Notes under the pieces: generated by a model | What the model was told of the DNA's origin: nothing | The model's database searches: none | Seen by the model: only the letters and a program-made list of their open reading frames with translations | Translations under genes and position numbers: made by a program | Part shown: one piece after another, positions 198 to 27,200 of the stretch | Position numbering within the stretch: position 1 is the first letter of the stretch | Layout of the letters: each line of letters begins with the position of its first letter | NCBI GenBank assembly: GCA_036365455.1 | Contig: JAWQUS010000008.1 | Span: 18,831,501 to 18,895,500 of the forward strand | Origin: Macrosoma leucophasiata | Taxonomy: Eukaryota; Arthropoda; Insecta; Lepidoptera; Hedylidae | Reading direction: 5' to 3' | Length of the DNA: 64,000 bases

Positions 198-217
198 ATG
201 AACACCACAATGAAGCC
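198..217 (+). CDS. Jarid2: Jarid2 exon 1 (start)
   Basis: The ATG at 198 opens a seven-codon start (residues 1-7, MNTTMKP). The exon ends after two bases of a Pro codon at a consensus donor GTAAGT (218). An in-frame stop lies upstream at 147-149. The exon may really start at 182 if the ACAG acceptor there is used. The choice of start is the least certain part of the gene model. Confidence 0.7.
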
Positions 218-3200
218 GTAAGTTTAAGTTCTAATCAAATGTGATAGTACCTACATGTGTGTAAACATTACCCTCATGAAATTCAATTATATCTTCCCTT
301 GCGTGAGACGGCCATTGAGGACATTTGAGGATTCTGCTTTCTGAGTGTTTGTGGACGCACCTGTTTATCAGCTGTCTTAAATTTTTGAAGCGTTAATACT
401 TTCTTTATGTCATTTTTGTTTAGTGAATGTTTATAAATATCAGTGGCGATTTCTCTAAGATGGCTCGTATGGCGCCGTCATACCACAAGCGGGGGTCTGG
501 CGCTTTGAATGGAGCACTACCTAACGATTTTTCGCATGTATTACGTGATAGTGTAGATTTGTGATAGTGTTTGTTACGTTTTCTATCTCTCTATTGATTT
601 AATTTACTTTTTATTTAGTAATTAAACCCTAAAATCGCGAAAAACGATGAGCTTTTTCATACAAAAATGTTAAATTATATTAAATTTCTTTTTTGCAAAG
701 TACAGTAGTAAGTATTTATATCTTCGTATCATCCTCTTCTCATCTTTCTGTAGCGCGCAAGGCCTCCCGGCTGGTGTAGAACGCAAGCGATTTACTCGAT
801 TAAGCGATACAGGTGTGTGACGGGTGACCACTAGTGGCAAATTAAAATGCACATTTTTGTGCTTCGGAGAGCAGGACGCCGACGGTCCCGGTTGCTATCG
901 ACAGATAGCAGTCGTTAAACCTTGTTGGAGGCTTTATGGGCGGTTTGAAAACATCCAACAGCGGGTTGGCCACTAACCCTTAAGCAAGTAACTCCACCAA
1001 CCCGCATTGGAGCAGCGTGGTGGAGTAAGCTCCAGACCTCCCCTCAAGAAGGGTAGAGACTCATGCCCAGTGCCCAGCAGTGGGACGTTTCAAGAGTTGC
1101 TATTATTATTATGTCATCTGCTTCCTCTTCCTCTTCCTCATCCTCTTCCTCCTAAAAATATCCTCTTCCTCATCCTCTTCCTCCTAAAAATATCCTCTTC
1201 CTCATCCGCATTCTCTAAATTGGTGCATCACAATTCCTCTTCCTCCTCCTCTTCCTCATAATCACTTCCTCAACAACCCTACTATATGGATGCCAAACCT
1301 GGGTTCACACCAACAAAACAAAACAGAAAATTGTAACCACACAGAGAGCAATGGAGAGGAATATATTACGGATAAGTAAAATACAGAAGATAAAATGTAG
1401 TAAAATTAGGAAAAGTCTTAAATGACAGATGCATTAACAAAAGCACTAGCATAAAAGTGGCGATGGGCTGGCCATATCTCACGATTTGTGGCTGACAGGT
1501 GGACATTGCAAACCACAAGCTGGGCACCAGGAAAAAGAAATGTTGGAAGGCCTTATAAACGGTGGTCTGATGACGTAGTCCAGACAGTTGGCTCTAACTG
1601 GCTCAATCTCGCCAAAGATCAGACTGCTTGGAAAAGGATGGATGAGGCCTATACCCAAAATGGGGCTGAATCTCCAAAAAGTACCAATAAGTAGTAACCC
1701 TACTAATTTAAATTAAGGCAGGTACTAACAACTAACATAAATTTATGATAAAATATAAAAATTATAGAGATCAGAATAATAAAGGCTTCATTATTATTAT
1801 TTATTATTATTATATTATTTTATATTTATTATTTTATACGTTATTATTATTTTATACCAATTCTTTGTATTTGTGATCAGTATGAAGTGGAACAACTTTC
1901 TCATATGTAGGTACATAATTTGGGTGACTTGTGGTTTGCAATGTCACGGCCCCACCAGAAAGCGCTGTAGTGCCAACTACAGCAATTAGCTGAGGTGGGT
2001 GCCATTTTTTTTTGGTCTCATACCTGTATCATGCCATAGGTAATAATATTCTTTACAGGTATAGGTATACCTACGTTATCGTAGTTACTTATACATAAGT
2101 TGTCATTCATGTTTTCTTTTTGCTTTCTCTATTATTTATTGTCATGTTGATGCATTGTGTGTATCAAAAAAAAACTTATAGTTATTTTTTGTTTACATTG
2201 TGACACGAGACACAAAAATTTTATAAATAAAGACTCGCAATGTTATAATCATTTTTACTCCCATAGAACCTTCCTTCGTTCTTAACACATTGAAAACATG
2301 TGATCCAAATTGGCTCGGCCATTCTGCGCTTCTGTTATTAGAACCACATTCAGCGATTTATTTTTATTCATATAAAAACCAAACGTTGTTTACAGGAGAG
2401 TTCAAGCACAACGTAAATTTGCCCAAGGAGCATATATACCACCTAATATTATTATAATGAATAATACTCCAACTGAACACAAAAATGAAAGTGTTCATAT
2501 TAGAGATGAAAGAAGAGCTGCTTTTCAAAACAATCAATCTGCCAAATCGCTATTAGATGTTATTTCTTTTCACAGTAAGTTATGTAAATAATTTGTATTT
2601 GTACTCATTTTTGTTCCATGTCTCTTTTCATTATGCTTTTCTACCACACTATTGACATGTAATAACAATAATAAGGGGGCAGAGCAGCTTGTGGCGAGCT
2701 GTTGGTAAGTTGCGACACCACCTGCCTAAAGTAGGATTCAATGATGTGAGATGTTGAATTTATGCAGGTGCCGGATCTCACTCCATAGGTCCAGCCAGCT
2801 TGTTAACTCACAAAGCCAAAAATTTGGCGAGTCATTTATCATTACAATAGTCCCATGGAACGTGTATTCTGTGGTTTACGATTCGCCGGTTATGTTTTTG
2901 GCCCATGTAACAGGTGGCGAGCCTGTTGACATCTCCGGGCACGTTACCAAACTTTGAGGTGCTGGGAAATTTCCAGAAAATGGAAAAATCCCAATAAAAC
3001 CAGAATTAAAGGACTACACCATTATCTCTGATAACCGCCTACCCGGGAATCGAACCCAGGAACTCTCAGAAGGAGCATAGTAGTAGTGGCCAATAATAAT
3101 AAGATAAAATTGTATAAAACCTCTTAAAAAAGATTGTCATACTAATTTTTTTTTTTCTTTAAGCTTTTCATACACACAATGATCCTGTGGTTATTTTGGA

Positions 3201-6200
3201 ACGATTAGAGAGACCTGTTGCCCAGGAAAGTGGAATAGGAGAATATTCTAATGCATCAGCTCATCCACTGTCAATATATAATAATACATTTTCAAGTGTG
3301 CCGCGAAATATACCTACCGAGCCTTTACCTATTCGACACACTAACAAACTAATTAAAAAAGTTAATGTAAAGAAAAAGACCAAAAAATTGGTTGGAATTA
3401 AAAAGGCAACTCCAATAAAAAGAATACTTACGAGTCGAAAAGAAAAGCCTGTTGCTGCACCTATCAAGAAAAAAGTATTTAGGAAAGCACCATCTCAGTC
3501 ATCATCCGACTATTGCTTAGATGACTTAAAGCCTTTAACTTTTTTCACCAAAAATACCAGTGTGGATGTGTCTACGAGAATAACTACACCACCATTGACA
3601 AAAAAGCCACGGCGTGTTCCAGGTATGAATTTCTATTATGAGTATATATCTTAACCCTAGATTCCTTACGGGGTAGGCAGAGTAAGTGGAGCGTCAAATA
3701 TACTATACATATACACGCTGATTCTAGAGGCTCTTGATCTTCAGATAGTATACGACCTCTTTGGTCAAGGTAGATCAGTCGTGATCTTTCTGGGTAACTG
3801 TAACTTTGACAAAACACAAGGTTAACACCTTGTGTTTTGTCATTCACTCATTCGATATATTTTTTATGTTATGGAAGTGGCAAAAAATCATGCAGTTCAC
3901 ATTGATGTTAAGCGATGACTGCAGCCTATAGACGCCCACACTAAGACCAAGGTCAAAATGCAGATGCGTTACCACTCCTGAGGCCTAAGGTGTTATGCCT
4001 CTGTGTACATTACCACCTGACTGGAACACAATAGTGCTGAACACTACCATTTAGCGGCAAGTATATAAGGTAATGCGGTGGTGCCTACGCCCCCTACGGT
4101 TCGACACTGGACCTCTATCACCAGTTAAACGATATTTATTCTACATGACCAAATCATCAGAGCATGTTTTCATTGTTAAACATATAAACTTATTCACACA
4201 AAGCTTTTTTCTTAAATCTATATTTGTATGTATGTATGCATGTATGTATGTATCTTCACGCCAGGTCCCTAACGGGGTAGGCAGAGAGTGTAGAGCGCCA
4301 GATATCCCGGTTCTGACAAACCTCTCGTGCCTCGTCTACCTTCATCATTCTCTTCATACATGCACGCCGATTCCTATCTATATTTGTGTATTATGTTAAA
4401 TGCATATAATATATTATGGCTATTATAGAACATATTTATTATGTTATTAAAAAGCTTTAGAATTATACGCCCGAAAAGGAGATGTTTCAAAAATGATATA
4501 AGGTAACAATTTCAAAAGAGTATTTCAAAGAAGAATTACTTAAGGTAAAGATTCTAGCAGAATCAATAATCCTCCATTCCTAAAAAAAAAAATTAGTAAA
4601 AAATGAAGTCGATTGAACAGTTCAACTTTTTTTTTTAATCAAAAAAAAAAAAATATTTTACCCTAATTATTAACCTTTTTTGGCATACTTATTACAATGA
4701 ATGGCTACAGAGTGAAACATTTCCTTTATATTGTAAAAATATCATTGTTCTATTTTTTTGTTTTGACATTTATTATTGTCCTTTTTTCAGTTAAACGAAT
4801 GCCAGTAGCCGAACCACCTCTTCGGGGAAAACGGTCTACTCGAAAAGGTACAGCTACAAATCCTACTATATAATTTAATATATTATTAGATTACTTATCA
4901 CACTTAATCGCAAATTTCATGGTTTTTCGTTTTTGAGATACAGCCAAAAAACGTAATTTTTTTCTCGCGGGCGTTAGCATTACTGCATTACCTATAATAT
5001 ACTTGCCGCTTAATGGTAGTGTTCAGCACTAACGTTTCCGGCACAGAGGCTTGACCTCTGGTCTTTGCATGGGTGTCTGTCTATAGGCTGCAGTCATCAC
5101 TTATCAATGTGAACTGCATGTTCGTTTGTCACTTTCATTAAATAATTTTAAAAAATCTTAATAACAATTGTTATTTTTTGTGCTAATCAACAATTTATAT
5201 GCCTTTTCCAAATATCACTGAATCGTATTAGCCGTTCCACAAATTTTTAAGAGCCTTTAGCGCTAAGCAGCCTATTCAGTCCTATGCGGTAATCGCTGGC
5301 GCCTGCGGGAGCGGGGTTACCACGCGGGTTTCAATGCGATATTTGGGATGAAGATTCGCGACTAGAGCGGAATATAGGCGGCGGTATAGCGGTATTGTAT
5401 CGGTAGGATCCCACTGCATGCAGAATTATTTCGTTCATCCAAATATGCTGAAACCTAATTTTTACGCATGTTTATAATCTAGAAAACATATATCCACTAG
5501 ATTGCCGCCACCAAAAAAGTACCGCCACGGGCAGCTGCTTAGGTGTGAACATTTATTTTACCGCGTGGGGACGTGGTTTCGCTGCCGCAAGCGGGAGCGA
5601 TTACCGCGCAGGTCTGAATAGCGCTTTATAAAGAATTAACACCGTCAGAGAATATATGTAATAATACTGCGTATGGACACTTCGACGTCCCGCCCGATTT
5701 CTTCGCCTTACCTCATCACCCTCCCTCGAGAGGCAGTTGAATAAACTTCAACAGTGAGGTTGCGAGCGGTCTATTTTTAATTTTTTATATGAATTCCATC
5801 ACGTAGTCAGTGCAAAGATTTATTTCACGATTGTTTTAATTCACAACCCTACGTGCTACATTTCTCTGTGCGCGTGTACTGATTGATGTCTGTGTAATAG
5901 GTAACCAGAATAAGCGTTTGTATGGAATTTTAACCGAGTGTCCGGTGTATGACACCATACATTAGAGTCAGGTGCAGTAACTAGACTATCATAAAACTGA
6001 AAGCAAGCTATAGGTATTACACTGCATATTTAAAAAGGCTGCTATTCGAGAGTAACAAAAGACAAAAGTAGTCCGTTTAATATATTTGTCGAATATGTAA
6101 GACTCTTAAAATACAGTAGGTAACTAGCTGGTTTATCTGAAATCTTTACGATTTTGTAAAAGAACAATTACTTTTTTAGATCAAGTCGCAGAACCGGCAA

Positions 6201-9200
6201 AAGCTCCTGGAAAATGTGAGTTCATCTATACTTGTATACTAATATTACCAAAAGGAAACATTTGTGGTTTTGTATGTATGTTTTTAACGTTTTCACACAA
6301 AATGTACTTGACCGATTTAAAAAATTATTTCACCATTAGAAAGCTGCATCTTCAACTGAGTGACATGGGCTGTATTACATTAATCACACTCGTGCGAAGC
6401 CGAGGCGAGTAGTCCATGTCACTTTTATCCAAATAATGTTTTGTCATATTTTCAAATATTACAGCGTACCTACTAGACGGGACACTCCACTTGGTAGAAC
6501 TATTCCAGTTTTTTGCATTCAATTTACCATGAATGAATGAATTTATTTGCTAGAAATATAGTACATGAGATCTTCACTATAATACAATAACTTCCTTTCA
6601 TATTTCACCACTTCATTGACATGCAAATAACAGAACATATTAAATTTTATCAACACATTATAATCATTACAATTATTCCATTTAAACATTGATCAAATTA
6701 TATATATATATTAATTATACCACGCTGTCCCATAGTAACATGACAGATGTGAAAACTTCTTAAATTAATATGTTTCAAATCAATTTAAAAACGAAAACGG
6801 CTGTTTGTTCCCTGTGTCTTATTTATATATAAACCTCATTGATTACAGCACCAAAATTAGCTGAACGTAGTCTTCGTGATAAACGGTCTGCATCAAAAAG
6901 TAAGAATTTACATACTGATTTTATTATGAGGTAGAGAAAACGAGCGGATTTTAAGAGTTATCACAAAATCGCTTTTAACCATTCGCGCCTATGCGTAAAT
7001 ATATCTTCATGATTGTATTCCCCGAAGGCAAGTGAACGCATTGAGGTAAGCATACATGCAAACGCTCACGATTCGCCAATTACATTTTTCACTATATAAA
7101 GTGACGAACCTATTGACTCTACCTCTGTCGGCAGATTTCTTAATTCGAATTAAGCCACTGCTACGCTCGACTGCACAGTAAAAAAATCTTCAAGAACTGC
7201 AGTTTTCGCTCATACATGCTCTTAATTTATTTAAACTTTTGCTCATAATTTATGTACAGAGGTGGACTTAATACCTAGTAGTATTCTCAATCAGTCAACC
7301 AACAAGCAATTATAATTTATCGGTACAGTTTTACAATAATGAAGATCCAACGCATTACCAACCACCAAAGAATCCCGACAGGTAGGTGGCAAACCAACAT
7401 GCAGTTTACATTAATATTTTGTGATGACTGCAGTCTATACACATCTACACAAAAACTAGAAGTGAAATGCAGATGCGTTGCCACCCCTGAGACCTTAGTT
7501 CTTATGTCTCTGTGATAGTCACTACGGGGCTATACATTACCGTCTAACTGGAATACCATAGTGCTAAATACTACTTCACCTGTATGTTTTTTGTATGTAT
7601 ATTACGCGATTTCTCCGGCGTTTACAAAATTATTGTTTTATTTGAAAGCCAATACTTCCGCGGTGGTCCCATTACCACAAAGTCGGCATGTGATGATGGA
7701 ATCCTAGAGAAATCGATATAAAACCTTTCCTTCACATTTATTGCATTAGCGACATCTGTTGCCAACAATGACAGGCAACCGATAAAACAAACTTTCAGTT
7801 TATTAAATATCGTAATGAAAAAATCAACTTCGGGCGGGACTTGAACTTGCGATCACTGGGATCTCTAGTACAGCCGCTCTTCCAACTGAGCTACCGAAGT
7901 CTTCATCTGATTGTCGTCTAATCTTTCCTTCAAATTATTTACATTGCTTTGGGGCGGCAGTAGCGACATTTATTGTCAACAATGACAGGCAACCGATACA
8001 ACAAACTTTCCAGTTTATCTTCCAGTTTTTATATCGTAAAGAAGTCGCTTTTATTACCCTTAATAATTGTTTTTATATTACTTATTCGCAACACATGCGA
8101 GTGAAATATTCCCAAACCCACAGATTGTCGCATATTATTATGTGTATTAAATTAGATGTAAATAAAAGGTCGGCCCATAATAAAATTTGACTAGCCACAA
8201 AAAAAAACAGTATTTTAATCAAATGGTCAGCATTTAAAGATTTTGTATGCAAGAAAAATAAACAATTGGCAATCAAAAAATTATCAATGATCAGTAATTT
8301 TATCATATAATTATACCTAATTAGCTTAAAATAATATGTGTTTGCCAAATAAACAGTTTATCCGCAAAATAACTACGTAATCAGCAACATTCACGATTGG
8401 TCAGCAAAGAATACTTGTCTGGTTCGTGTTGGTTGGGCGTGATGAGAAACTAGCGACTTGAACGGGTTAGGTAGAACGGTGTAACGTATTTTTTTAGATT
8501 AGTTGTTTCCCTTTAAAATACCGAAATAAATATTAAATTATAATATTTATTTCGGTATTATAAAGCTTCTTTTTAACACTATTTTGAAATCATTAAAATG
8601 TTATTTACAACTTTTTAGTGTTAGTTTAAACTTGTTCTTTATGTATAAGAGGTAGATTCTATATAGTTTTTAAGTCGGTTTTAATTTTTTTAATAGTATT
8701 ATTCCATTTAATCTTATTAAGAAATAAATAAGGTCCTATCATGTTTTTATTGTCACCGGTTGGTGTGCATTGCATATAGGCAAATAAGTGAGATACTGAT
8801 ATCTCACTATAAAAATCTTTTGTTGCAGTTTCTTAAAAAATACGTTTTCTAATGATTATTTGACCTTCATTTATTCATGTTATATAATTTTCATATACCT
8901 CTTAAAAAAATATTTATTTATTTATTCTTCAATGCACCGAGTACATTAGGCGGACTTAATGCCACTAGGCATTCTCTAACAGTCATCCTTTCTAATCTTC
9001 AATGATAAATTTCATACAGTAAAATATCGCGCGAATTCGTAAAACTGCTTACCAAATTCACGCACTCTCCCAATTCATTTAGCATTAAAGCCACTAAAAA
9101 CTAGCGGTCTGCCCCGGCTTCGCCCGGGCGCAGTATTACCTACATAACTACTACTAATACGGTACTAATCTAAAGGATTTCGAAATCGGTAACTTTTCCT

Positions 9201-12200
9201 TAAACCGAACCTGCTGTATCTGTTTCATACGTACACTCTAAAAACATACCCTTAGGGCACAGACATTCCGCCAAAATTCCATACAAACGCTTAATTTTTT
9301 TCTCTATTACACGGATATCAATCAGTGACTGCACCTGTGTGCGTAGCACGTAGAAAATACCAACCGTCGCCCATAAGAGGTTGGGTGATGCGGGGAAATC
9401 GGGCGGGACGATGAAGTGTTCATTCTATACGTAGTATTATTTTGCGAAATTTGTCGGAAGGTACTTAGGGGACGAATTTCGCAAAATATCGACTTTAACA
9501 TCACCTACGTGCTTAAAAAAGTCCCTATCTAAAATTTGAGACTTTGCACTTTTGCACTTGTTATTCCTAAGATTTACGGGGCAGGCCGCTATTATACATA
9601 TATCATAACACAAAATGACAGTATTAAAATATTGCAATGTATAACGATGCATTTATGATTTAATGATTTACTTTTCAGACACATTCACGGGACAAGTACC
9701 TAAGATTCGTAAAAAAAAATCTACAAAATGTGAGTTGAAGAAATAATTTTACTGTTGGCAGAGCTCTAATGCCGAATTATTTATATTTATATATCCTACG
9801 TTTATTTCTCTTCTTACAGACAAGGGTAAAATATCAGGATTATCAGCATTTTCCGACAAGAGGCCTACAAAGGATCGTTTACGCAGTAAGTTGTTATATT
9901 TATGTAACTATGAATAGTGATTTTGGACAGCATTTTTTGGATATATCTTTTGGTTAATTTTGGATCATATGAAAACACATAATCATAGCTAGACTAACGC
10001 CACCAAAGCCACCAATGTCATCAACGCCACCACTGTCACCATCGCCACCAGCAACGCCACTAATGCAACCGCATTCAACTCTGTTTAAAAAATGGAAGCA
10101 GTGGAACATAACTTCTTTTTCTCTTAACCGATTTTGTCAAAACCATGTTTTTTTGGTTTCTGTCACTCTTTTTTCGTCGCCCCCCTATCAGTTTTTTGGA
10201 AAAATATTTAATGTTCTGTACATTAAGTATATTTCCACTCTTACACTCGAATTTTACTGTCTTATTATATTATAGACTAGCTGGCCCGGCGAACTTTGTA
10301 CCGCTTTAAAGTAAAGATATAAAAGTAGACCACAGTTTTAGCGAAACTAACAAACAGAAATTGATTTTTTAAAATTGCCTAGCCTGTCCAGTTTCGATAA
10401 TCACTCAATGACATTTATTAAAAATGAAATAGTAAGTACACCTACGTCATAATGGCGGGCATTGACATTTGAATTTATAAAATTTACCGGACATCCCTCA
10501 GATCACCGGTTATAACTCATACGTCTAGTGCCTCCTTAATCACCAGAATTTGGCAGAATTACCCAAATTGAGGTAGAAGCCGTAGTATAACGAAGAAGAA
10601 GAAAATTATTGATTTTATTTCACGAATTATCATTAAATACGAATTTTGCGGATACATGTACGTAAAAAAAATATTCTGAGTCGAGAACTCAGAATGAATT
10701 TTTTTTTTTACGATCTTTTTATTGTAGATAGGTTTCGATCGATAGATCCGTAGATCTGTGGCAGAAAATATGACATGTAATGTCTGTGCATAGGTTCTAT
10801 TGGCGGCTGTGAAAATTTTAATATTAACGTTGTGCATTTTTAACTACTAATGCCACCAACACTACGATCACCATCACCACCATCGTCACCACCACCACCT
10901 CCACTGCCTCCACCGCCACAAACACCATCAACGCCACCACCAACACCTACATCACCAAACACCTACGCCACCAACGCCTCCAAAACTACCAACAACACCA
11001 CCAACGTCATAATGCCTCCATCGCGACTAAAAACCACCGCCACCATCCCTTACACCATCAACACCACCACCAGAGTCATCATCAACACCTACGCCACCAA
11101 TGACACCAATGACACCAATGACACTAACGACACCAACGCCACCAACGCCACCAACGCCACCAACGTAGTGGCGAAAGTAGTAAAGAAAAATGGAAAGAAA
11201 AATTTGACTTCAGGCGAGACTCGAACTCGCGGCCACTGGGAATCTAGTACAGCCACTAGTTTTTCTTTAAAAATAATATATTTCACAAGCATGTGTTAAT
11301 GCGAAATAATATAAAACAATAATTAAGGGTAAAAGCGACTTCTTTACGATATTCAATAAACTGAAAAGTTTATTATATCGGTTGCCTAACAGCATAGTGT
11401 GGCAATAGATGGCGCTGCTGCCACCATAAGGCAATGCAATAAATGTGAAGGAAAGATTTGACAAATCGGGCAGGACTTCGGTAGCTCAGTTGGAAGAGCG
11501 GCTCGACTAGATTCCCAGTGCGGCCACGAGTCTCGCCTGAAGTCAAATTTTTCTTTCCATTTTTCTTAAAAATAATATATTTCACAAGCATGTGTTAATG
11601 CGAAATATTATAACAATGGTTACTAATTATTAAATAATTATTGTGAATAATTATGTATTTACATATTTCAATAAAATCGATCATTTATTCTTAAAATTGG
11701 CACATTAATATTATAATTACATTAACATAGAATCGCGATGCTTCATCGATTGTTGGGTCCATCACTATTAGGTTATATGAGGTATCATTATTTTACGAAG
11801 TGACAGTAGCTCTAATGTCAAATGCGGAATCGAATTTAAACTCAGAGTACAGCCACGCATGAAGCGCGCATGGCCCAGCAGCTGGTGTAGATCGTAAGCG
11901 ATCTGCTCGGTTAAGCACTACGGGCGCGGTCGGGTAGTGTGATGGGTGACCGCTAGTGGCAAATTAAATGCGCGTTTCCGTGCTTCGGAGGGCACGTTAA
12001 GCCGTCGGTCCCGGTTGCTATCGATGGATAGCAGTCGTTAAACCTTGTCGGAGGCCTTATGGGCGGTTTGAAAACATCCGACAGTGGGTTGGCCACTAAC
12101 CCACCCACCTCCACCAATCCGCATTGGAGCAGCGTGGTGGAGTAAGCTCCAGGCCTCCCCCCAAAGGGGAGAGACTCGTGCCCAGCAGTGGGACGTATAT

Positions 12201-15200
12201 TATGGGTTGCCATTATTATTATTATTATTACAACCACTTTTGTTTTCAAAAACCATAATTATGTTTTTTATTACAGATACGGTCTCTGAAATAATTACTG
12301 TTCCAGAGCCAGAGCCAGAGCCAGTTTCTAGTCTAGTGAATCAAACAATAGAAGAAACTGTAAGTAAGTAACTTAGATACACATTGATTATATCTTTATA
12401 TGTTCTTAGGTTTTCGCGAGCTACACTCATTGAAATAAAATTATTTTTACGGATTTATCACGCGTATATTAAACTAAAATGATTTTTAAAATCAACCCGA
12501 CGTTTCGGTCTCTTTTCAGCTTCCGTGGTCCCGGGCAGACTGAGGTGACATTTGTCTGACAGACGTTTGAAAAATTATATGTAGCTACCTCCATCGATTT
12601 TGGTAAACGCCTTGCATAGCGTTCAAGATTAACGCAAAAATTACTCATGGTATCTTGAGGTCTTGCAGACTGCTGCGGCTGGGATTTAATTTTGCTAAGT
12701 ATGGGATCCCATGATGTTGATAATCGCCATCCATCTTCTGTATTGAAATTTGGGTGTTTTTTTTTAATTTCAATAGGCTCGCATACCATTCGTGGAATGG
12801 GTATAGCGAGTATTTGAACTTAATCAAACTAGATGTAATGGTTCAGCTTATCCGCTATGTGTTCAAAGACTGCAGACCTCCCTGTTCTCCGGTGACGCGG
12901 GTACAGCACTCTTCGTTTGACCAATATATGAGGGTCCACAATCACAATCTAATTTATAAATGCCAGAATTTTGTAATGGAATATTACTTTTTATGGGTCT
13001 TAAATACTGATGAATCTTTTTATATGGTTTGAAAACTGTTTTAAATGGAATTCTTTTTTAAAATGTTGCTGATTTTATCTGTGACACCCTTAACGTAAGG
13101 TAGTATAGCTGGTTGTCGTTTTACTGTAGGTGGTTTCACGCGGCCTCTGTGACGGACAGGTGGTACACGGAGCTTGTTGTTATATAGCACCTGGCGTAGG
13201 TGCTTCAGCTCCCCCTGAAGATAGTGGTCGTCACAGATGCCTCGTGTTCTCTGAAATAGAGATGAGCTAACGGCAGATAAATGAGCCGGGTGATGGTGTG
13301 ATTCACCATTAAGGTACCTATCAGTATGGGTAGTCTTCCTAAACACAGTGTGACTGAGTGTGTTATTGGTGTTTCTAATTAATAAAGTATCTAAAAAGGC
13401 TAATTTATTGTCCTGTTCCAATTCCATAGTGAATTTGATTTTATGGTGTATTGAATTGAGATGTGAAAGAAAAACAGAAACATTGTTGCTATCCAATATG
13501 GTGAACGTGTCATCTACATGTCGTGTGTAAATGCGAGGTGTTATGGTTGTAGTGCTCAGGGCTCTCTCCTCGTAATGAATTCATTTGCTGAAAGTTGTAG
13601 ATGTTTGACTTCAGCAATGAAACTGTAAGAGTCTTCTTTGACATACGCTCTAGTGTGTCCCCGCAGTGGTGAAAGTATCTGTGCCACATGTTTTGCCAAT
13701 TTGTATGTTGGGGTATCATAATAATATTTGTCTAACTATGGGACGAAGCGGAGCGCCAGTCTTATGTATTTTAGGGAGCCCATACAGTTTGGGTGGCTTT
13801 GGACAAGCAGGGAAAAGTTTTGGTACGTCAAGATCCAATGAATATGAATATTTATGAAGTAAATCGGTAGTCTTTTTTTTTAAATCATTTTAGTTTAATA
13901 TACGCGAGATAAATCCGTAAAAATAGTTTTATTTCAATGATTATATCTTGCTTAAAAATCTTTGTTTATAATATTCAGTTTATTCATTTATTTCATATAA
14001 TTAGGCTCCTGGAGAGCACTTTTACATCGTCATTTTTTTAAAACCACCACATCCCTAACATTTTATTTTGAGAGACTTATCCAACGATATCCCACACATA
14101 AAGAAAACGAAAAAAATATTTTTTACTGCGGTTTACTATATATAGGACAGTATACTCGCTCCAGAGTCGATATACTAGTCACTTTTGTTTTCAAAAACCA
14201 TAATTATAATGTTTTTTTTTCAGATACGGTGTCTGAAATAATTACAGTGCCAGATCCAGAGCCAGTTCCTAGCCTAGTGAATCAAAAAATAGAAGAAACT
14301 GAAAGTGAGTAACATTTACTAGCTGATCTAGACGATGAGAATACCTTGGCCATTGCCGCGATGAATAAATTCTTACAAAATACAACACAAATTGAATCAA
14401 CGGGCAACCCGTTCTTTTGATTAGTTGTTTGAAACCCAAAACAAAGCGAAGTTGTGGTGGTAAAGGGTTTATGAAGGAGTATTTTATAGGGAAATTTATT
14501 TGCTTAATTTTGAGTTAAAATTATTCAAACGTGTCAACCGAATACGTAAAGAATTTGCGCAGGATTAATATTACACACAATATCTTTATAAATTGTATAG
14601 CCTATGTGATATTCTGTAGTTTTTACGTGAAAGAATAACGAACATCCACCCATACATACATATTTACAATTAAGATCGCGCTCAGTCCGTAATCAGTTAC
14701 CATTATAACCTGTAAGAAGGTTAATTAACTTACCCAAATTCAAACGAAAGTAATAATATCATTAGCAGTTTAATGCTTGTAATGCTTATTAACAGAACGT
14801 AAGGGGTTTCCCAACACCAGCGATAAAATAAACTTTCAAAGATAAGCGGCATCAATCCACGCGGATCTCATTACGACCCGCGAATTGTTATTCTGGTCAT
14901 CACTAAACCAAGACTAGCGCTATAGTTGTACCCCCTAAGAACTCACGGAGCGTTTTTGTCCTGTGCCCGCCGCGGTGGTGGAACTGCGGTTTTATATTTA
15001 TAATCTCACGAGACCGGTTATTTGCACGGTTACGCGGCCGTCGCGTTTGAGATCATCGCACGCATACGTGGTGGGCATTGAACGCAAGATGGGCGGTTAA
15101 CGATCAGTTGACTGCCAGTTCTGAGTCGCTCGCCAACTGAGTGCCTAGTACGGGATTTTATTTAATTTCCATACAAATCTGCGTTTACTCTTACGCGATA

Positions 15201-18200
15201 ATTCGGAAATCTCGCACTAGGCACTCTGGTCAAAAAGCGCGCGGGCGAAACCCGCCGAGACTGCGGGTGACCGCGGCCAGTGCGATTCTACTAGGTGCCC
15301 GGCGGTTGCAACGATCGACGTGTAAAACGCGTCGTAAGATGTGCTTTAATTATTTACATATTAAATATCTGCATTCTACAGAAGCTACGGGCCTTCAACC
15401 GCGTCGGACGCGGATGTAAATCGCTTTGTGAATTCTTAGCCTAATTCGTATGTCTGGTCTCACCTACCCTATCCAGTAACACTCTAAACCGAAGTTCAGA
15501 AAAGAGGGTTTTCTTAGGCTAAGAGCCATTTATACCCGTCTCTTGTCCTTTGTTGAAGACGATAAGGCGATATCTCGAGATTGGGCCTCTCATATACTTT
15601 AATAGAGATTCCATTACCCGATGCAAACGCGTGCTACTTCTACCACATAATGTTTTTTATTTTTACCTGAAATAGAAACAAGGTAGCGCTAAACAGTGCT
15701 ACTCAGTGACAGATAGATGAGGAGACGTGACGAATTAAATTCAACTATCTTTTTCATCTAGGTTGCTTATTATAATTATGTCATTATAATAATTAAGTTC
15801 ATATTTTTATATGCGGTTTTATTTTCAGATGTAGCCCCAGAGCCGGATCCTAGTCCACTCGAAACATTTCCGATACAATATGATGAAGGTAAGGAAAATT
15901 TATTGTGTAAATAAGTAAATTATTACTTAGATCAATCGACATTTTCTCAATAGTATTTGTAATGTTGTGTATGTATCTTCACGCCATGACCTTTGCGGGG
16001 TGGGCAGAGAGTGTTGGGCGCCAGATATGCCGATCCTGACCCACCTTCATTGCTTCTTCTACATTCATACATGCGTGCCGATTCCTAAGACTCTTGACCA
16101 CACCCTCAGGGTGAGATTCACAGGCCGCACCTCAGACAGTAGTACTTAGTAGTAACTTTTATCTATATATTTATTAGGTAATATTATGAAATACAGTAGT
16201 CATTTGCAAAAATACATCATAGAAAGTAAACTTAAATTACCTCGTTGAAAATTACTTGTTACTCTTCTTTTCATTGTTTTTTTTATGTAATGGAAGTAGT
16301 AAACAAGCATGCAGTTCATATTGATGTTAAGTGATGACTGCAGCCTATAGACACCCACACAAAGACCAAGGTCAAAATGCAGATGCGTTACCACTCCTGA
16401 GGCCTAAGGTGTTACGCCTCTGTGCCAGAAATTATAGGGCCGTACATTACCATCTGACCGGAACACGATAGTGCTGAACATTACCATTTATCGGCAAGTA
16501 TATTAGGTAATGCGGTGGTACCTGCGCTCGCGAGCTCCGTCACTGGATGTCTACCACCAGTAAAAATAATTTACTCATTCGTAGTCGCAGGAAGACATAG
16601 TGGGATCGGGAACACGTTCAATTGTCTGCTTTGCATGTTATTTACATTATAAGTAAGGATCCCACTGGAGAATCATTTCGTTCATCCAGATTGTATACTA
16701 CTATTGTTTTAGATATTTTTTATGCATATTTATAATCTAGAGAATATATATCTACTGTTGCCTATCAAAATATGGCCGCATATATTTTTTTGTATTTCGT
16801 TTTAAGGGTTTTTTTTTTACATCTTTTTTCAATAAAATATCGTTCGCTTCACGGCTATATGTATAAACTCTGTGAAAAATCACAGACTAGCCGTTGCGCA
16901 CTTGGCCGCCCCTACATATTTACGTTCCGCCTTGATGCCTTTTTACGTTCAAAACGTTGTTTGTTGTTTATATATCAAATAAAAGCTATTTGTTTCTCAT
17001 TATTATGATAAAAGAAGCCAAATTAAATGGGCAGTCTGCGAGCGTGGGAATTTATTTTTGAACACACATATAGAATTTTTCTACTCACACAATTAGATCA
17101 CGCAGTATTGTATACCAACGCTAGGAAGTGACAAGAACTGACATAAGTCTTAGTCTCTTATAAAACTGCAAAATCATCTTTTAAAATACGTGACATGATT
17201 CTAGGATTCTTCATCTCCCGAGGTAAAATATTTTATTTTATTTTAATTTATTTTTTACAATTTTGGGGTAACTAACAGCTAGTTACCAAGATAAATAAAC
17301 ATATAGATATTTGTTACCGAGAGTTACAGATATGTACCACATATAACTTTAGAAGTAGGTACACGAAACGGTTACAGTAGACAACGGTTATTCATAATTT
17401 TACAATAGTAGAATAATGATGTAAAAAATATAAAATTAATTGCAAAAACAGCAACAAACGCACAACACACGGCTATAAGGGGAAGAAAATTCAGATGGTA
17501 CGGTTGGAGACACCGTCCGTATTTGGTTCCTTTTGCACTTTCAGACACATGATCAAATCTTACTAATGCGAGCATGAAAGGATCATCATCGTTTTCATTA
17601 TTTTCAATTGCATTTGTATTGAACTCCGTGTCGGAAATGGAGCCGGTTTCGCGCATTTTAGGTTACATGAAAAACGTAAATTAGGTACATACTTAATTTT
17701 CATTTTTTCTTGATTGTCATGTAGTCGTCAGAGTCAGACTTGGCGATCCGACACTCGCGCGATTTCCTTGAGCACTGATTGATTTTGACACGAGTCCTGA
17801 CGGCCGTTCTCTTTTTTACAAAATGATATCGTCTAGCGACTTCTGCATAGAAAAATGTATTGGCAGCAGGATGCGTAAAAATATATAATATATTTAGACA
17901 AACTTATCTGTTTCTTTTTTCCGATTACAAAAAAAAACCAATAGTGATTGTAATGTTTATACTTTTGTCTCACGATTAAGCAAAAATATTTTTAAAATAT
18001 AATTTGGAAATAGTATAAATAAATATTTCCAATAGAAACGGTCGATTTAGATGTTTTTGTATTGATTATAATGTTTATGATTTTTTTTTTAGCGTTGCTT
18101 AGTGTAGTGGATTTTATAATATTTTGAAAATCGTAAGGCCCTATCTCGCTTTTTCCAGGGACGGGCCTTTTAAATCGGCCGCAAATAAAAGTTACTGGGA

Positions 18201-21200
18201 TTTAAAGATAAAATAATTTAATCAAAAATACTAGCGGCCATATTTTAATAGGCAACCTAGTAGATTATAGATTCTCTAGATCAGAGGTTCCCAAACTATT
18301 TTTTCTTGTAGACCCTTTACAATTTTTTCTGGTTCCTGTGGACCCCCGTCCTTGCTACATTTATATCACATTCCCATATTTCCAATTTTACGCCTTAATA
18401 TTTACGCCTACGTAGACCCCCATCGAGTCTCCCATGGACCACCTTGGGAATCACAGGTATGATGTAAGTAAATTTGTACTATCAGTGTATGTGTTGAGAT
18501 CCATTATCGTGGACCCCCATTTTAAGTTCATGGACCCCCAATTTTTTTTTTCGCTGAAGCCAACCTCTTTTTCTTGTCATAGACCCCCAGGGGTCGATAT
18601 AGACCACTTTGGGAATCACTGCTCTAGATCATAAAATTAAATATACCTATTAATTAGGTAAGCAACATATCTGGGTGAACGAAACAATTCTGCAGTGGGA
18701 TCCTAACCTATTATAAGTTTTTTGTATTAAAAATAATCTGCACACAGCTTAAAGAAACCAGTAACATTACCTGCATATTATTTACTTTATCACATCGGTC
18801 GGTACCGATGCATGTCACGTCTTCCTTGCTTCGTCTGTTTTCATCATAGGGGGTATTCAACCAGTTGAAACTACTAGTTGTTCTGTTTATATGATTGAGA
18901 TCTCAGCCATTTATTAATTTCTGTCTGGAATTAAGGAACGTGCTCTTGAACGGACCAAGGTGTCTACGAATCGAATTAAGGGTGGAGATGTGACCATAAC
19001 GAGGAAGGCGTGAGGCAAATACAGTGCGAATATTACGCAGCCCTACGTCTCGTGTTTTTGTTTTCACAGTCGCCAAGGTCAATCAGCAACTGATTTAATT
19101 CTGTTGTGGTGGCTTGTCTGATGCTAAAGTAATAAAATTAGCTGCGTCTGCGAATTGTGATGTGAATAAGTATAGAAATGTAGTAGTGTTTACGTCGTCA
19201 TTAATAAAATAGTTGCAAAGTGAAAACGAAATAAAAAATTTGGCTGCTATATATACTAACCCCTTTATTCATAAACGTATTTTAGCTAAAGTGTTGCTAA
19301 TCTCTCCTTTGTCTATTTCTATCCTGCACATTTGATAATGCAACTGATAAGGACAAAGCATTCTATAGCTAAAACGTATCTAATCTACGTTTATGAATAA
19401 GGGGGTAAAAAATTATTTTAGTATATTATATACTAAAATACATTTTAAACACGTCTCAGCTCTGTTGCTTACATTATATTTACCTCAATATCATTTAAGA
19501 TTATATACAGGGCGGACAAGACAATTATTAAAACTGACAGTATCCAAATTGAATATTATCTCATAGCTTATTCTGAAACATTTTTGTTTATTGTAATATG
19601 ATTTTAACATGTACAGAACTGTGTTATGATGCTGTAATCATTTGAATACGATAAATTATATTTCTTTTACGTTACACAGTTGTATTAGCTAGAATATGCA
19701 GTATTATTAGTTTTTTTCCGCCTTGTGTATGATTTATACTAACCATATTCTTAATTTAGCGCATGCTTCGACTCTTGGGATGGGTCAGCAAAATGTAATA
19801 CTCCAAGGCACTTCTTGGGGTGAGTATTTATGTTTTGTTTCGAGTATTAAACATGATTATGTACTCGTACAGATAATGGTAGACTAATAATTACAAAATG
19901 GTTGTAAATAATCATTGCAATCATCTGAATAAAGTGTCCACGTACATTATCTCGAGCCTTTGTTTACAATAGAAGATACATTTAGAAGGGGCCTGAGTTT
20001 TCTTTACTATCGTTCAAACTGAAAATCGTAAATGTAAAGGCACGTCGCTGTCTATCATTAATCAAACAATCGATTTTACTGTTAATAATTCTCATATTTC
20101 TCATACATGTAATGAAAATACTATCATTGCGAAATTGAGCCTAAAAGACGTTAAGATTTGACAGATAACTCTCTTGTGTGGCCGGACTATTATAAAACCG
20201 AAAGCATGGCGTTACCGTTCACAGCGTTGTACATTGTTCTTCCAGTGCGGTGTGCTTTAAATGATATTGAACAAAAGCGGAATTGTATTTAAAACTGGAA
20301 CAAATTACTGTGAAAGTGTGTAATAAAAGATTACAATTTCTATTACTTATTATTTATCGTATTAACTTGAATAAAATGTCAATACGTTGTTGTGTTACGT
20401 TGTGTTACGTTGCAACGTATAGTAGACATTTAAATATAATGAACAGATTTTAATGTTTAACTCGTTAACCTGCAGTTGGACCGATATCGGTTCACGAACA
20501 ATTAGAAATCAATTGTCATATTTTTCTCGCGAGTTTACAGATTAATCTGTAGGGACGTTAGTATTAGTGGTAGCTAGTACTAAGCAAACAGGTTTAAAAA
20601 TTATTTGGATTGTATATGTTTCAGAATTACCTGCGCAAATCCATAACAATATGATTTCATCCATACATGATACAGTCCCAGTAGCTACAAACTCTTCATA
20701 TGGTAAGTATCATTTCACTCTAGGTGACCTGGCAAACGTCTTTCTGCCATACCATAAATGTTGAAGCCGCATAAAAATAGAACAGGCGGTGCCCGCGTTT
20801 GTGTGAGCAACGCGTTTGAATGAAATTAATTATCATACGCGCTTTTCCTTGTGAATACTTCCAAGATATTAATTTTAATTATACATATAGTGTGCTTGAA
20901 ATGCTTAGCGTGGGTCAAGATATTTGTTAAAGTTATTGTAACATTTAATATCCTTCTCTAACTTTTACAGATTTCTTTAAGTTAGAGAAGAGAAATATCT
21001 CGGTGCTACCCAGGCTTAAAGTAACAAAAGTATTTAATTTGATGAGGATTAATGCTCTATTTTTTTTTGTTACACTTATCACACTTAATAGGCGTGTTAT
21101 CTTATTTCGTAACGAGGGTAGTAAGAAATTAAAATTCGGAGCGTACAACCGCTTCGCGCAATAATTAGAGAGAGAGTTATATTGTGGCGTTGCTGTTGTA

Positions 21201-24200
21201 AATCTTAAGCAAATTTTTTTTTTGTTTTAGAGCAATACAATCAAGCCATGACAGCACCGACGAATCTCCAGATGCAAACAACTTCGTGGGGTATGTATTA
21301 TTTAATGCCCTTAATTTTAATTTTTAACCCTTATGGCATCTGCTTCATTATTTGTGTGTTCATCGTGTGTTTATTTTTTAGTGCCCGGTCCGGTACCTGT
21401 TACTATGCCTCCATTGCACGGTTATAACACATACACTGTTCCACCACAGCCAAACCAAATGGGTAAGTTTTATTGTTTTGTAATTTCATCGCATTAATTG
21501 ATTTACAGTTAATTTCATCAACGATACAAATTCCGAGTTTACAAGTATATCGTCATCGTATTGGCGTAGAGGGAGAAATAAATAAGTATGTTTTTTTATG
21601 TTATATACACGAGTTTAGGTTCAGCTCAGTTTAGAACTTTTCTGATTTCCAGTAGCAATCAATATAATTATTGATGTGAAATATTCATATTAATTATATT
21701 GACAATGTGTTAGCTTAAACAGGATACTTGGTTTCGGCTTTGTAAAGCTTTATCTTTACCGTACTAAACACTCACAGCCCAGTATTAATACGGAGCTGCT
21801 TCAACCCTTCTAAACAGAGTTGCATGCAAAAAAAAATATGTTCTACAATTTTTATAATAGATGTTAACATCATTGGAGCAATAGAAACTGAGATAATCGC
21901 GAAAAAACTTATTTTTGACCCTTGACCTCGTATAACTTCCGGATAAATGGAAATGAGTTGTGAAACGTTAGAGACCTTAAATAAGGTATCACAGTTTTAT
22001 ATTTACATTGTAATGTATATTTTCAGTGCACATACCTACACTAATACATATCGCACAAGGATTCAATCCATATGGAGTAACTGTTCATGGAAATCCCCCT
22101 GGTAAGTATAATTAGGAAAGTCTGACGTCCAGCAGTGGACAGTGGACAGTTTTAGGTTGATAAGTAGTATAATTATCAATATGTCATGTTATTAATATTA
22201 TTAAAAATGATGTCAACTTTATAAATATTTAAATATTCACATCGTTCCGTCGCGTATGGTCAAATTAGCAATAGGTCAATTTCATGAGAATCGCAATCCG
22301 TTTAAATAGCAAATTTTAAAGGTTCTTATTGTCAAAAGGAGACACAATTCGAATTTAAAATAATTGATCGAGTGCGATCTAGACTGTTTGCTGATTTTAC
22401 CGTTTGCGATTTCAAAATCATGTGTAATTGACAATTCGCGATATGGACCAATCGCTATTTTGACAGTTTGAGATATTGACCAATCACTATTTTGACCCAT
22501 TGCGGTTTAGTCGGTTTTTGTCACTTGACCGATTGCGGATTTGACCATTCGCGACAAAACCATTTTTTTTTTAATGTAATAAAAGTGGCAAACACGCATG
22601 CAGTTCACATTGGTGTTAAGTGACGACTGCAGCCTATAGGGGTGTCTATAAACACACAAAGACCAAAGTCAAAGTGCATATGCGTTATCACTCCTGAGGC
22701 CTAAGGTGTTATGCCTCTGTGTCGGAAATTACATTACCACCTAACCGGAACACGATAATGCTGAACACTGCCATTTAGCGGCAAGTATATGTATAAAGTA
22801 ATGCGGTGATGCCTACGCCCGCAAGGTCCGTCACTGGAGCTCTACCACCAATAAAATATTCATTTTTTATACTAACACTATAGTATAATGAGTTTACCAG
22901 TGCTGCCTTAGGCGTGGGATGCATCGTGGTATTGATACTAGTTTCAATTGGTTGACTTGTTTAAGTATGACAGAATAAGAATCAATAATAATTAAAAACA
23001 GCTTAATAATCTATATATTTTTATTAATTACTTTTACACTCGTACATGGCAGGCATTTCAGTTTGAACTATTATTTGACCTAATGTACCAATGTGTTTTA
23101 CTATTAGAGTTATATTAATAAATGTTACTGACTAATTATTGTATAACTTTAGCGCATACTTCACAACCAATAATGGGCCAACAAAATTTAACACTTCAAG
23201 GAGCACAATGGGGTAAGTATTGTAAGCAAATTTTATTATGAGACTGTATTTTTAAATTAAGGAATTTCTTTCGCGTCACTAATACTGGTCTCCCAAATAT
23301 AAACGATATTAAGTTTAAAATATACGTCGATATAAATTAACTACTAAAAATTTCCAAGGTCATACTACCTATATAAAATGGGAAAAAATGTGTTAGCACA
23401 GCACAGCATATGAGATACGTTGAAGAACATAGAACGAGCGGACCAAGTTTTCTACTGAGAGCTCTGATCATTTTTTTTAAATTTAATAAAAGTGGCAAAC
23501 AAGCATGCAGTTCACATCGATGTTAAGTGATGACTGCAGCCTGTAGAGACCCACACAATGACCAGAGGTCAAAATGTAGATGCGTTGCCACTCCTGAGGC
23601 CTAAGATGTTATGCCTCTGTGCCGGAAATTACAGGGCCGTACATTCCCAGCTGATCGGAACACGTTAGTGCTGAACACTACCATTTAGCGGCAAGTATAT
23701 TAGGTAATGCGGTGGTGCCTACGCCCGCGAGCTTCGACACTGGAGCTCTACCACCAGTAAAAATAACACAGTCAGAATAACACCAACGTATGTGACATAA
23801 ACTCCCACCAGAACCTCATTATAAGCGCGGAGTAGATCGTACCAAAACAAAGTTATTTCATTGCTCTCTAATTTCCATTTTGAAGTTGGAAAGGAATATT
23901 AATTGCACGAACTGTTTTTTCCATTTTACAACACAGCACGAATTCTAACGTTTTTTCTATTATAAGACGAAAAGTTCTATGTATAAAAATATTGTAATTT
24001 GACACATAAGAGTCCAAAGTTTTTCAGGTCCCTTTTCTAATTTGACAATTATATATTTTTGCTTATATAATATGTTTATAATTATTTCTAAACGAATTCT
24101 TTGTTTCAGTTCAAATTGCCGATCCAGTGTCGATTGCTAACGCGCCTGTGCAAAACACGCAATGGAGTGAGTATAATCAAATGGCAGTATTTTATAAGCA

Positions 24201-27200
24201 TTAAATCACTACATATGTGTATTATCGCAACTTTTTACTACGCTGAGTTCCCTGAAATAAAAAACGGAACCCTTTATTGTCCGTCTGACTTTAAAAAATA
24301 ACACAGTCATAATAACACAAACGTATGTGACATAAACTCCCAACAGACTGTCCCTGTCTTATTTAAGAAAAACGGATTCTGTTTCACGAACCTTCGCCCA
24401 GCAAAACTTGTTACATCGAATTGTTGTATGTTCATAATAGTTTATACAAAAATAAATTTTATGTACGACAGTTTTAAGTTAACGTTTGCGCACTATCTTA
24501 TAATTACAGAACAATGCCACCAATCTACTTCTGCACCTGCTGAAGGTTCTGTTTTAACGGCTGAAGCCCCTAAGGGTAAGGGATGTTTTAAAATATTTTT
24601 ATTTTTATTTTTCTGTTTAGATTTACTTATTATATTATCAATTAATGTCTTTAATCAATGTTTATTTTGGCTACTATAAAAGAAAATCTTATTATTGGAA
24701 ACAGTGTTTAGGTGTTCATTTTTATTAACCCACTCGGGCAGTACCTACTCGTAAAAGTAGTTAAAGAAGTACTTAATTTATTGTTATATTTAGCACTAAT
24801 TAATTTTGATTTAAATTGTAATAAAAACAAAAACATATCTAATAATAGCTGTAATTACTTATCCTTGCAGTACAATGCTCAAAGCCTACTTCTACAATTG
24901 CTGAGGGATCTGTATTAACGGCTGGTGCACCTTGGGGTAAGTAACAGATGATGTTTTAAAATATGTTTCTCCTCTAGTCATTTGAGATTTATACTATTGA
25001 ATAATATCTTACCAACTTTTATTTTAGCTACTAACAAAGAAAATACTGGTGCTGTAAACAGTTCGAACAACGTTGTGATGATTCAAAATCTTCAGAAAAC
25101 TAATCAAGAAGAAACAAACTACAATCCATTTGTAATAGAACACTGGTTCCGTAAAACCTCGGATACTGAAACACTTTCTAATCATTCTGAAAGGCCTGAA
25201 TACAATGCAGATATTTTTAAAATACCAGCTGTACTGAATCCAAAACCTTGCGACCGTGAGATTGATAGTGAACTAATGAATGTTATGTCAACTACTAGCA
25301 AAACAATTTCCTCAAGAAAGGATTTGGAAGAGCAGGATATGAATTTCAGTGTCGTAGATTCTACTACATCCAGTCCTCCACTATATTTACAAAACTCTAA
25401 CACGTCATATTTTAAAAACAGTAGAACGCAATGCGAAAAAGCTTTGACACAGTTATCATCATCAGAAGCGGATGTTACAGGTAAACAAACAAGTTCTAAA
25501 GAAAGACCATCAAAACGCAATAAACAAAAATTACAGAAGACGCCGACAGAAGAGAAGTCACATGTTGAGATAAACTCTGAAATAAACGATTCAACTTCAG
25601 CTATAATAGAACCTGTAGATTGTCTGTCTGAACGATTTGCTACAGTGAAACAAGTAGTTACCGCCAGTAAAGAAGACCTAGACAAGCGCTGTTATAAATG
25701 TAGACACTGTGGAAGGATTGATAAAATTATTCTTCTCGCTGAATTAGTGCGAAAACCTGAAACTGAAGCAAGTCTTCTTAAAAATACAGTTTTAACTCAA
25801 CCTGTATCAATTGATGGCGAAGTCTGTCCACCGTTAAAAAAGTCGGAATACATAAAACGCATTGATTATTTTGATCTATTACCTGATAGCTCTCATGTCA
25901 TTAAGGTAAGCTGGATGATATTACCCAATCGAAATAAACCTATGCTAACTGCGTGTTTAGTTAAAAGGAATGGAGAAAATGATGGTGACGTATCTCTTAT
26001 TGAACACGAAGGTGCGATCGATCAGCTTCTAGTGGGTTTCATGATAAGCAAGATAAAACCTGGAGATACTTGCAGTCATCATAGTGTAATTACGCCGAGT
26101 ATTGGTGAGCCCTCACAAATTCTTCAAATTCAGCCGAGTGATTCCAGTAATGATACGATGCCAAGTTATCAACTACACGAAAGCGTTAGAAGTCCTCCTG
26201 AACCTGCCATTTCAAATTTTCTAAAACCTCGTGGAAAAGGAAAGTTGGTGAACGCACCTGTATTTTATCCTACAGCGGAAGAATTCATGGTTTGTATAAA
26301 ATTTTGTCTCGTTTCGTGCGTCGTGAAATTAAATTCTAGTGTACAGATATCGAACGATTCTTTTTTCAAAATATGTAAGCTACCACGATATAAAATACTT
26401 TAAAGTTAAGCCCATTAGCTAATAAACAAACGGACAACATAGAAAAACAAAAGGGGAGGTTTAAAATTCACCTTGAAGTTAATGAATGAATTTACGAGTT
26501 TACTTGAATTGACATAATCAAATCACCGACTTCATTGTCTTACGTATAAAGTTATAACCAATTTCAGGAAGGTCCAGTGGCATATTTTGAAAAAATTATG
26601 CCTATAGCTGCAAAATTTGGGCTGTGTAAAGTAGTAGCTCCAGAAGGCTTCAAACCAACTTGTAAACTAACCGAGGATATTCGATTTACGGTAACAAACC
26701 AGTATATATCAAGAATATACACTCGATGGGGTAGCTCAGCCAGGGAATTGAGTGCTATTAAGGCCCATCTAGCAACAGAAGGAGTAATTTTCAATCGATC
26801 ACCGCTGGTAACTGGCATTCTCTTATTTAATTATAAGTTATTTGTGTATGTTTCGAAATACACTGCTGGCGCTGTAATGTGACACTAGTGCAGTATTCTG
26901 CGAAGCCGTTACTTTAACTGTGAATTAAACGTCGGGTTGATTTAAAAAAATATTTAAATGTGTAAAAATAGTTTAATTTCAAAAATGATAATACATTTCT
27001 TCAGTTACTTATATTTCATACAAATATTAGTTTAAACTGCAACAAAATATATTTCACTCAATCATCATTTACATCAATACTCAATACTTTATTTGAATGA
27101 CAATTTAATCATTTCATTATCAAAGCACTGAGTATTTTATCTCGAAAACGCCATTACTCACTTTACAAAAATGGCGACGATTATGACGTCATATAACACA

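Follow-up and report, generated by a model that had tools for sequence, protein, structure and literature searches.

The 64,000-nucleotide stretch of DNA analyzed here (the window; C8:18831501-18895500, contig JAWQUS010000008.1, in the 616-Mb genome of the lepidopteran Macrosoma leucophasiata) carries a Jarid2 gene on its + strand. Between exons E3 and E21 of this gene lies a predicted array of 17 small exons, E4-E20, which occupies 4791-24936, comprises exons of 36-87 nucleotides (nt) with a total of 1092 nt, and encodes residues 220-584. All 17 have GT-AG borders, are of phase 1-1, and have lengths divisible by three. A preliminary description of this DNA had given the array these coordinates, sizes, phases, and residues, and all were reproduced in the model of E1-E22 listed below. 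It had also called the exons microexons, a term that does not fit: published limits are 3-27 nt (PMC7935315), elsewhere under 30 nt or under 51 nt, and none of the 17 exons is under 30 nt and only one (E5) is under 51 nt.

E1 (proposed), 198..217, + strand: 20 nt beginning with ATG (MNTTMKP...), donor GTAAGT, phase out 2, in frame with E2; inferred only
E2, 2396..2574, + strand: open, GT-AG; contains AQRKFAQ, the JARID2 motif that surrounds the methylated lysine
E3, 3164..3622, + strand: phase 1-1; conserved anchor DDLKPLTFF near its end, also found in other Lepidoptera
E4, 4791..4847, + strand: 57 nt, basic; weakest donor in the array (GTACAG)
E5, 6180..6215, + strand: 36 nt; last base T; creates a stop when spliced to E13, E14, or E19
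E6, 6849..6899, + strand: 51 nt, basic; weakly resembles E4
E7, 9679..9729, + strand: 51 nt, basic; last base T; creates a stop when spliced to E13, E14, or E19
E8, 9820..9885, + strand: 66 nt, basic; 90 nt from E7
E9, 12277..12363, + strand: 87 nt, acidic; duplicate of E10
E10, 14224..14304, + strand: 81 nt, acidic; duplicate of E9
E11, 15829..15888, + strand: 60 nt, acidic
E12, 19760..19819, + strand: 60 nt, neutral, terminal W; duplicate of E17
E13, 20625..20702, + strand: 78 nt, nearly neutral
E14, 21231..21290, + strand: 60 nt, nearly neutral, terminal W; weakly resembles E12
E15, 21382..21462, + strand: 81 nt, neutral; 91 nt from E14
E16, 22027..22101, + strand: 75 nt, neutral
E17, 23153..23212, + strand: 60 nt, neutral, terminal W; duplicate of E12
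E18, 24110..24166, + strand: 57 nt, nearly neutral, terminal W; weakly resembles E12 and E17
E19, 24510..24575, + strand: 66 nt; duplicate of E20
E20, 24871..24936, + strand: 66 nt, terminal W; duplicate of E19; 91 nt ahead of E21
E21, 25028..26289, + strand: 1262 nt, phase 1-0; contains IEHWF and the CLSERF...C..C..C motif; JmjN begins here
E22, 26568..26807, + strand: completes JmjN and begins the ARID region

The identification of the gene as Jarid2, made in the preliminary description, was borne out by its domains and by its N-terminal motif. In a Pfam query whose later exons were connected by eye, with some pieces omitted, JmjN (44.3, cut-off 26), ARID (59.1, cut-off 24.1), and JmjC (76.2, cut-off 24) all passed their cut-offs and occurred in this order. 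The AQRKFAQ motif in E2 matches JARID2 chain 7kso_F at 110-119, around residue 116, when compared by eye, and the N-terminal part of the window protein had no PDB match at E 10. JARID2 has an N-terminal nucleosome-binding domain, and methylation of its K116 is read by EED (PMC7603765). The spliced frame of E1-E22 is open across 3252 nt, for which the chance in a random stretch of the same composition and length is ∼1e-9, a crude figure since the exons were picked for being open. The gene has one alternative start candidate, at 667.

Introns between E3 and E21 range from 90 to 3871 nt, and the GC content of the exons is 0.44 vs 0.36 for the introns. The array peptide matched no Pfam family at E 1. 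Its charge is distributed in blocks, with a net charge of +21 for E4-E8, -16 for E9-E11, and -4 for E12-E20; the order of these blocks has a permutation p of 0.003, a value inflated by the fact that E9 and E10 are copies.

The number of such exons was compared with chance expectation by a scan that required splice sites and an open frame and counted non-overlapping phase 1-1 candidates, with splice-site frequencies taken from general knowledge and thresholds fixed after the exons had been seen. In 4300-25020 the scan returned 17 candidates, namely 16 of the 17 array exons and a single stray at 13667-13702, within a transposon; E4 was not recovered because its donor, GTACAG, is weak. Forty first-order resamples gave a mean of 1.7 and a maximum of 5 candidates, the minus strand of 4300-25020 gave 0, and the stretch at 41000-61720 gave 3. 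Array segments of 10 kb starting at 4300 and 15000 held 6 and 10 candidates, respectively; 10-kb segments taken from both strands at 20 sites of this genome (40 strand-pieces) averaged 1.4 with a maximum of 4. Classes 0-0 and 2-2 yielded 9 and 7 candidates in the array, which are probably for the most part the same exons, open in another frame. Further exon candidates at 5483, 7295, 12669, 13667, 13775, and 17223 were dropped as unsupported; those at 12669, 13667, and 13775 fall within an element at 12411-13956.

Three pairs of array exons are clear duplicates, with shuffle z scores of 12.0 for E9/E10, 9.7 for E12/E17, and 9.6 for E19/E20. Their exon identities are 0.85, 0.65, and 0.73, respectively, whereas the 133 other exon pairs average 0.43 and do not exceed 0.60. 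Flanking introns, compared beginning 20 nt before and 8 nt after the exons, have mostly lost this likeness: in the same order of pairs the upstream flanks are 0.55, 0.50, and 0.48 identical (background maximum 0.63) and the downstream flanks 0.48, 0.42, and 0.65 (background maximum 0.58), leaving five of the six distant flanks within background. Ratios of replacement to silent substitution rates (dN/dS) are 0.22, 0.18, and 0.51, and the three pairs pooled show 20.4 changes at 47.8 silent sites vs 27.6 at 150.2 replacement sites, for a p of 0.0016 in Fisher's test of the rounded counts. Silent divergence (dS) is 0.37, 1.94, and 0.54, values that suggest duplication at different times. As the duplicates kept their amino acids while most of the flanking intron decayed, the six paired exons have probably been translated, and coding use of the array exons is likely.

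The array contains five tryptophans, and each of them is encoded by the final complete codon of its exon (E12, E14, E17, E18, and E20; hypergeometric p 1e-7, post hoc). Ten end-anchored comparisons among these five exons, with uncorrected p values, gave a clear likeness for E12/E17 (p 0.0002), p values of 0.006-0.012 for five other pairs, and 0.015 and 0.031 for E14/E18 and E14/E17; E14/E20 (p 0.58) and E18/E20 (p 0.37) showed no likeness.

These results bear on the reading that most of the exons are illusory or decayed, consisting of chance splice-like sites or of remnants that are no longer spliced. The weak donor of E4 is consistent with it, as is the lack of clear sequence relatives described below, one search for which was restricted to proteins of ∼264-840 residues. 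The candidate counts lie far over background, however, and the duplicated exons retain frame and amino acids next to mostly decayed intron, so that this reading is very improbable.

The three duplicate pairs might instead be mutually exclusive alternatives. Their clear homology favors this reading, as does a long inverted repeat in the intron between E9 and E10. That repeat, with 81-nt inverted ends that are 88% identical, belongs to the element at 12411-13956, one end of which has at least 42 genome matches including itself (40 of 365 candidates were scored), several of them 99% identical. These copies mark the element as a young multicopy transposon, and a role of the repeat in splicing was ruled out on this ground. 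Two of the pairs are adjacent but four other exons separate E12 from E17, and all lengths are multiples of three, so that the frame does not enforce exclusion. Mutual exclusivity was judged the least probable of the readings weighed here.

The uniform phase of the array has a simple source. A phase-1 intron accepts only 1-1 exons without breaking the gene, according to the exon-shuffling rule, and the end of E3 and the start of E21 are both phase 1. Growth inside a phase-1 intron thus accounts for the 1-1 phase of every exon, and the phase is consequently no evidence of regulated skipping. The preliminary description had held that any combination of the exons could be skipped in frame, which stands for 129132 of the 131072 subsets (98.5%) and fails where E5 or E7 meets E13, E14, or E19: these six joins make a TAA or TAG stop because E5 and E7 end in T. 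Its further suggestion, that one gene could make many versions of the linker, would be permitted by the frame, and the linker differences in Battus and Vanessa given below lend it thin indirect support.

On the scale used here, the splice sites of the array score on average 3.4 (acceptors) and 8.7 (donors), and those of E2, E3, E21, and E22 score 1.1, 5.8, 1.5, and 0.6 (acceptors) and 6.7, 8.8, 3.3, and 7.2 (donors). The array splice sites are no weaker than those of their neighbors. Three introns, E7-E8, E14-E15, and E20-E21, are 90-91 nt long.

Such data can be set against the idea of a regulated combinatorial device, in which tissue- or stage-specific subsets of exons give many linkers that tune PRC2 recruitment. 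The great majority of subsets are open, the charge blocks would let subsets shift the net charge, and frame-neutral linker variants are annotated in Battus. Against these stand splice sites no weaker than those of neighboring exons, three short introns suggesting fixed joining, six stop-creating junctions, and a uniform phase that is accounted for without regulation, and such a device is unlikely. Less likely again is its fullest form, in which thousands of tissue-specific variants would occur and splicing would program the linker of one PRC2.2 subunit, whose basic, acidic, and uncharged linker blocks would set its affinity for RNA, nucleosomes, or condensates.

The opposite reading, that all 17 exons are constitutive and form a long, divided linker whose symmetry has no use, shares its exon part with the explanation preferred below. 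Strong donors, adequate acceptors, and purifying selection on the duplicated exons are all consistent with it, and isoform evidence of skipping from within one annotation comes from Battus alone. Conversely, linker segments are variably present among the Battus isoforms and between two species of Vanessa, and small exons flanked by long introns often undergo a degree of skipping. Fully constitutive splicing is possible, though it was given well under an even chance.

Relatives were sought with several queries. A search with the conserved part of the protein returned 333 relatives, with many lepidopteran proteins, up to 58% identical, among the best 120 of the 333; the top score among the matches listed belonged to a midge protein that is 45% identical. 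A tree of 39 rows built from the conserved part and rooted at its midpoint places the window gene, without a close relative, in a fork that counts it among 31 rows (support 99/96), and all named members of this fork are lepidopteran. A 480-residue query made of the array with bits of E3 and E21 found nothing at E 10 among 7995 candidates, which were proteins of ∼264-840 residues; full-length Jarid2 was unable to appear in this search because only proteins of that size were admitted. A 1077-residue query, in which search words were thinly spread, returned seven proteins, three lepidopteran and four vertebrate. When the array was compared with its own genome, and the best candidates were scored, 16 of the 17 matches were the window itself and the 17th, at E 3.65, was attributable to chance.

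The 17 array peptides were also aligned locally with the N-terminal parts of 36 of 41 lepidopteran sequences, five isoforms or near-duplicates being omitted and two of the 36 being assigned to Lepidoptera by likeness. None of the peptides stood clearly above shuffles in these sequences, none of which is closely related to the window species; E11 was marginal (p 0.049), owing to its P/E content. Both flanking anchors, one at the end of E3 and the other the CLSERF...C motif in E21, were recovered in the same relatives, each at p 0.016, the minimum possible with 60 shuffles. The preliminary description had named absence of the segments from close relatives as grounds for abandoning the array; the segments are unrecognizable in all 36 sequences, among which there are no close kin. 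This counts only against an ancient conserved array and not against a recent one.

The region between the anchors varies widely in length in other Lepidoptera. Both the [ED]D.PL anchor and the W motif were located in 16 of 41 sequences, where they lie 36-481 residues apart, as against 430 in the window; the distances are approximate, as anchors were picked by eye and some W matches are possibly another motif. Judged by these proteins, the array seems to lie at a point where the length of lepidopteran Jarid2 is free to vary. Battus isoforms X2, X5, and X6, which come from one annotation, differ in the linker by 94 and by 54+94 residues, and Vanessa tameamea differs from V. atalanta X3 by insertions or deletions of 33, 19, and 20 residues (those of at least five residues were listed), near the sizes encoded by array exons. 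The Battus and Vanessa differences are known from proteins alone, in which their status as exons would be unreadable. Of 27 usable lepidopteran N-termini, with two species entered twice, 19 had an internal repeat that scored higher than any of 20 shuffles. The repeat scan lost 11 of 38 lepidopteran sequences and 18 of 19 from other insects for want of a cut point; the sole other insect left, Nasonia, also scored above shuffles (63 vs 62), and no comparison between orders was drawn.

The predicted Jarid2 proteins of Parnassius apollo and P. mnemosyne contain near-identical tandem repeats. Those of P. mnemosyne are of 32 residues and lie at 218-319, between the anchors, and those of P. apollo are of 51 residues and lie at 709-912, closer to JmjN.

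Taken together, these observations make it somewhat more probable than an even bet that E4-E20 are genuine coding exons that grew within one phase-1 intron, partly by duplication, and are mostly included by default with some skipping. The exons would have arisen inside the single intron between E3 and E21, partly through exon duplication, at a site where lepidopteran Jarid2 tolerates widely differing linker lengths, and the phase of that intron would force every newcomer to be 1-1, hence each removable. The product may be a modular and probably unfolded linker of 364 residues, with a basic (E4-E8), an acidic (E9-E11), and a nearly uncharged block (E12-E20), and would separate the PRC2-contact motif of E2 from JmjN-ARID. 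Most exons would probably be included by default, and skipping of some would alter the length and charge of the linker; the exons joined by 90-91-nt introns (E7-E8, E14-E15, and E20-E21) would be expected to act as units. A contribution of the basic block, E4-E8, to nucleosome or EED-type contacts is a guess. The analysis directly supports the splice sites, the frame, the phases, the duplication and purifying selection in three exon pairs, and the lack of clear likeness to the relatives compared; the splicing-in of all 17 exons, the disorder of the linker, default inclusion, some skipping, and an effect on PRC2 or chromatin binding are inferred.

Several points weigh against this explanation. 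The selection test is direct support for the six exons in clear duplicate pairs, and for the remaining eleven of the 17 the coding case is made by splice sites, frame, and phase. Among the flanks of the duplicates, the downstream flank of E19/E20 (0.65) is above the background maximum of 0.58, and ∼42 nt directly upstream of E9 and E10 are also similar. The nearest relatives compared are ∼58-66% identical in the conserved part, the tree is one without close kin, the protein searches returned no product from this species or a close relative, and the exon junctions are predicted. The short W motif of E21 was not above shuffles in relatives (p 0.87). The linker differences of a Manduca pair (313 residues) and a Papilio pair (42 and 80 residues, with others besides) span different annotations and may be artefacts, as may that of a Choristoneura pair (350 residues gone at one end, 131 + 28 added), which spans different annotations as well. 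Species pairs from Colias, Maniola, and Leguminivora/Cydia show less clean differences.

Several gene families offer partial parallels to the array. PEVK motifs of titin correspond to small frame-neutral exons. Like the array product, the PEVK part of the titin I-band is unfolded, and it consists of 26-28-residue motifs in a region of >220 exons with splicing variants in length (PMC5498327). Titin PEVK differs in being a muscle spring with far more exons and established splicing variants, whereas Jarid2 is a chromatin protein with 17 such exons, some of which may be skipped; no sequence relation is claimed. The exons of schistosome micro-exon genes (MEGs) are smaller than those of the Jarid2 array. 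MEGs nevertheless resemble it in having a symmetrical micro-exon series within one gene, from which splicing has been suggested by the authors to yield a protein mixture (PMC4671649). Their proteins are secreted, whereas Jarid2 is a chromatin protein with conserved domains. When the organization of MEG and PEVK genes was used as a measure (consecutive exons of the same phase with lengths divisible by three), all 17 array exons conformed. Tropoelastin likewise has small exons that split codons alike and can be omitted, in an unrelated extracellular elastic protein. Vertebrate JARID2 shares with the window gene the AQRKFAQ motif near the N-terminus, a long variable middle, JmjN, ARID, and JmjC, and we know of no comparable exon array in it. 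Neuronal microexons are similar in being small exons in regulatory genes, yet at 3-27 nt (PMC7935315) they are shorter than the 36-87 nt of the array. Titles and abstract openings in the open-access literature described no such array in Jarid2. Small symmetrical exon series are already known and, as far as these parts of the literature extend, what is new is the occurrence of one in a Polycomb accessory gene.

With seventeen removable, charge-sorted modules, Jarid2 would offer a naturally occurring range of linker lengths to set its PRC2-contacting end apart from its DNA-binding end, which makes it testable whether the length or charge of its linker is important for silencing. The lepidopteran Jarid2 linker would also be a site of gain and loss of coding segments within a gene that is otherwise conserved.

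The CLSERF...C..C..C motif of E21 is a second lepidopteran feature of the protein. A lepidopteran-shaped pattern for it matched 18 of the 41 lepidopteran sequences and none of 84 others, and the motif is missing in Battus X5/X6 and Manduca X3; judged by this pattern, CLSERF with its spaced cysteines is a conserved feature of lepidopteran Jarid2. Farther downstream, a candidate zf-C5HC2 exon was noted by eye near 39595.

Repeats of other kinds are scattered through the window. One dispersed family is represented at 3858-4130, 7367-7593, 16277-16565, 22566-22856, and 23473-23762, in introns of the array and just ahead of it. Minus-strand matches to the tRNA family at 7826-7900, with an inverted near-copy at 11474-11511, and at 41293-41365 suggest tRNA-derived short interspersed elements. 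A degenerate CCACCAACG minisatellite at 10841-11171 lies in the E8-E9 intron, inside an open frame of 151 codons, with no sign of an exon. The open stretch at 49642-50148 resembles, by eye, what we take to be part of a mariner-type transposase.

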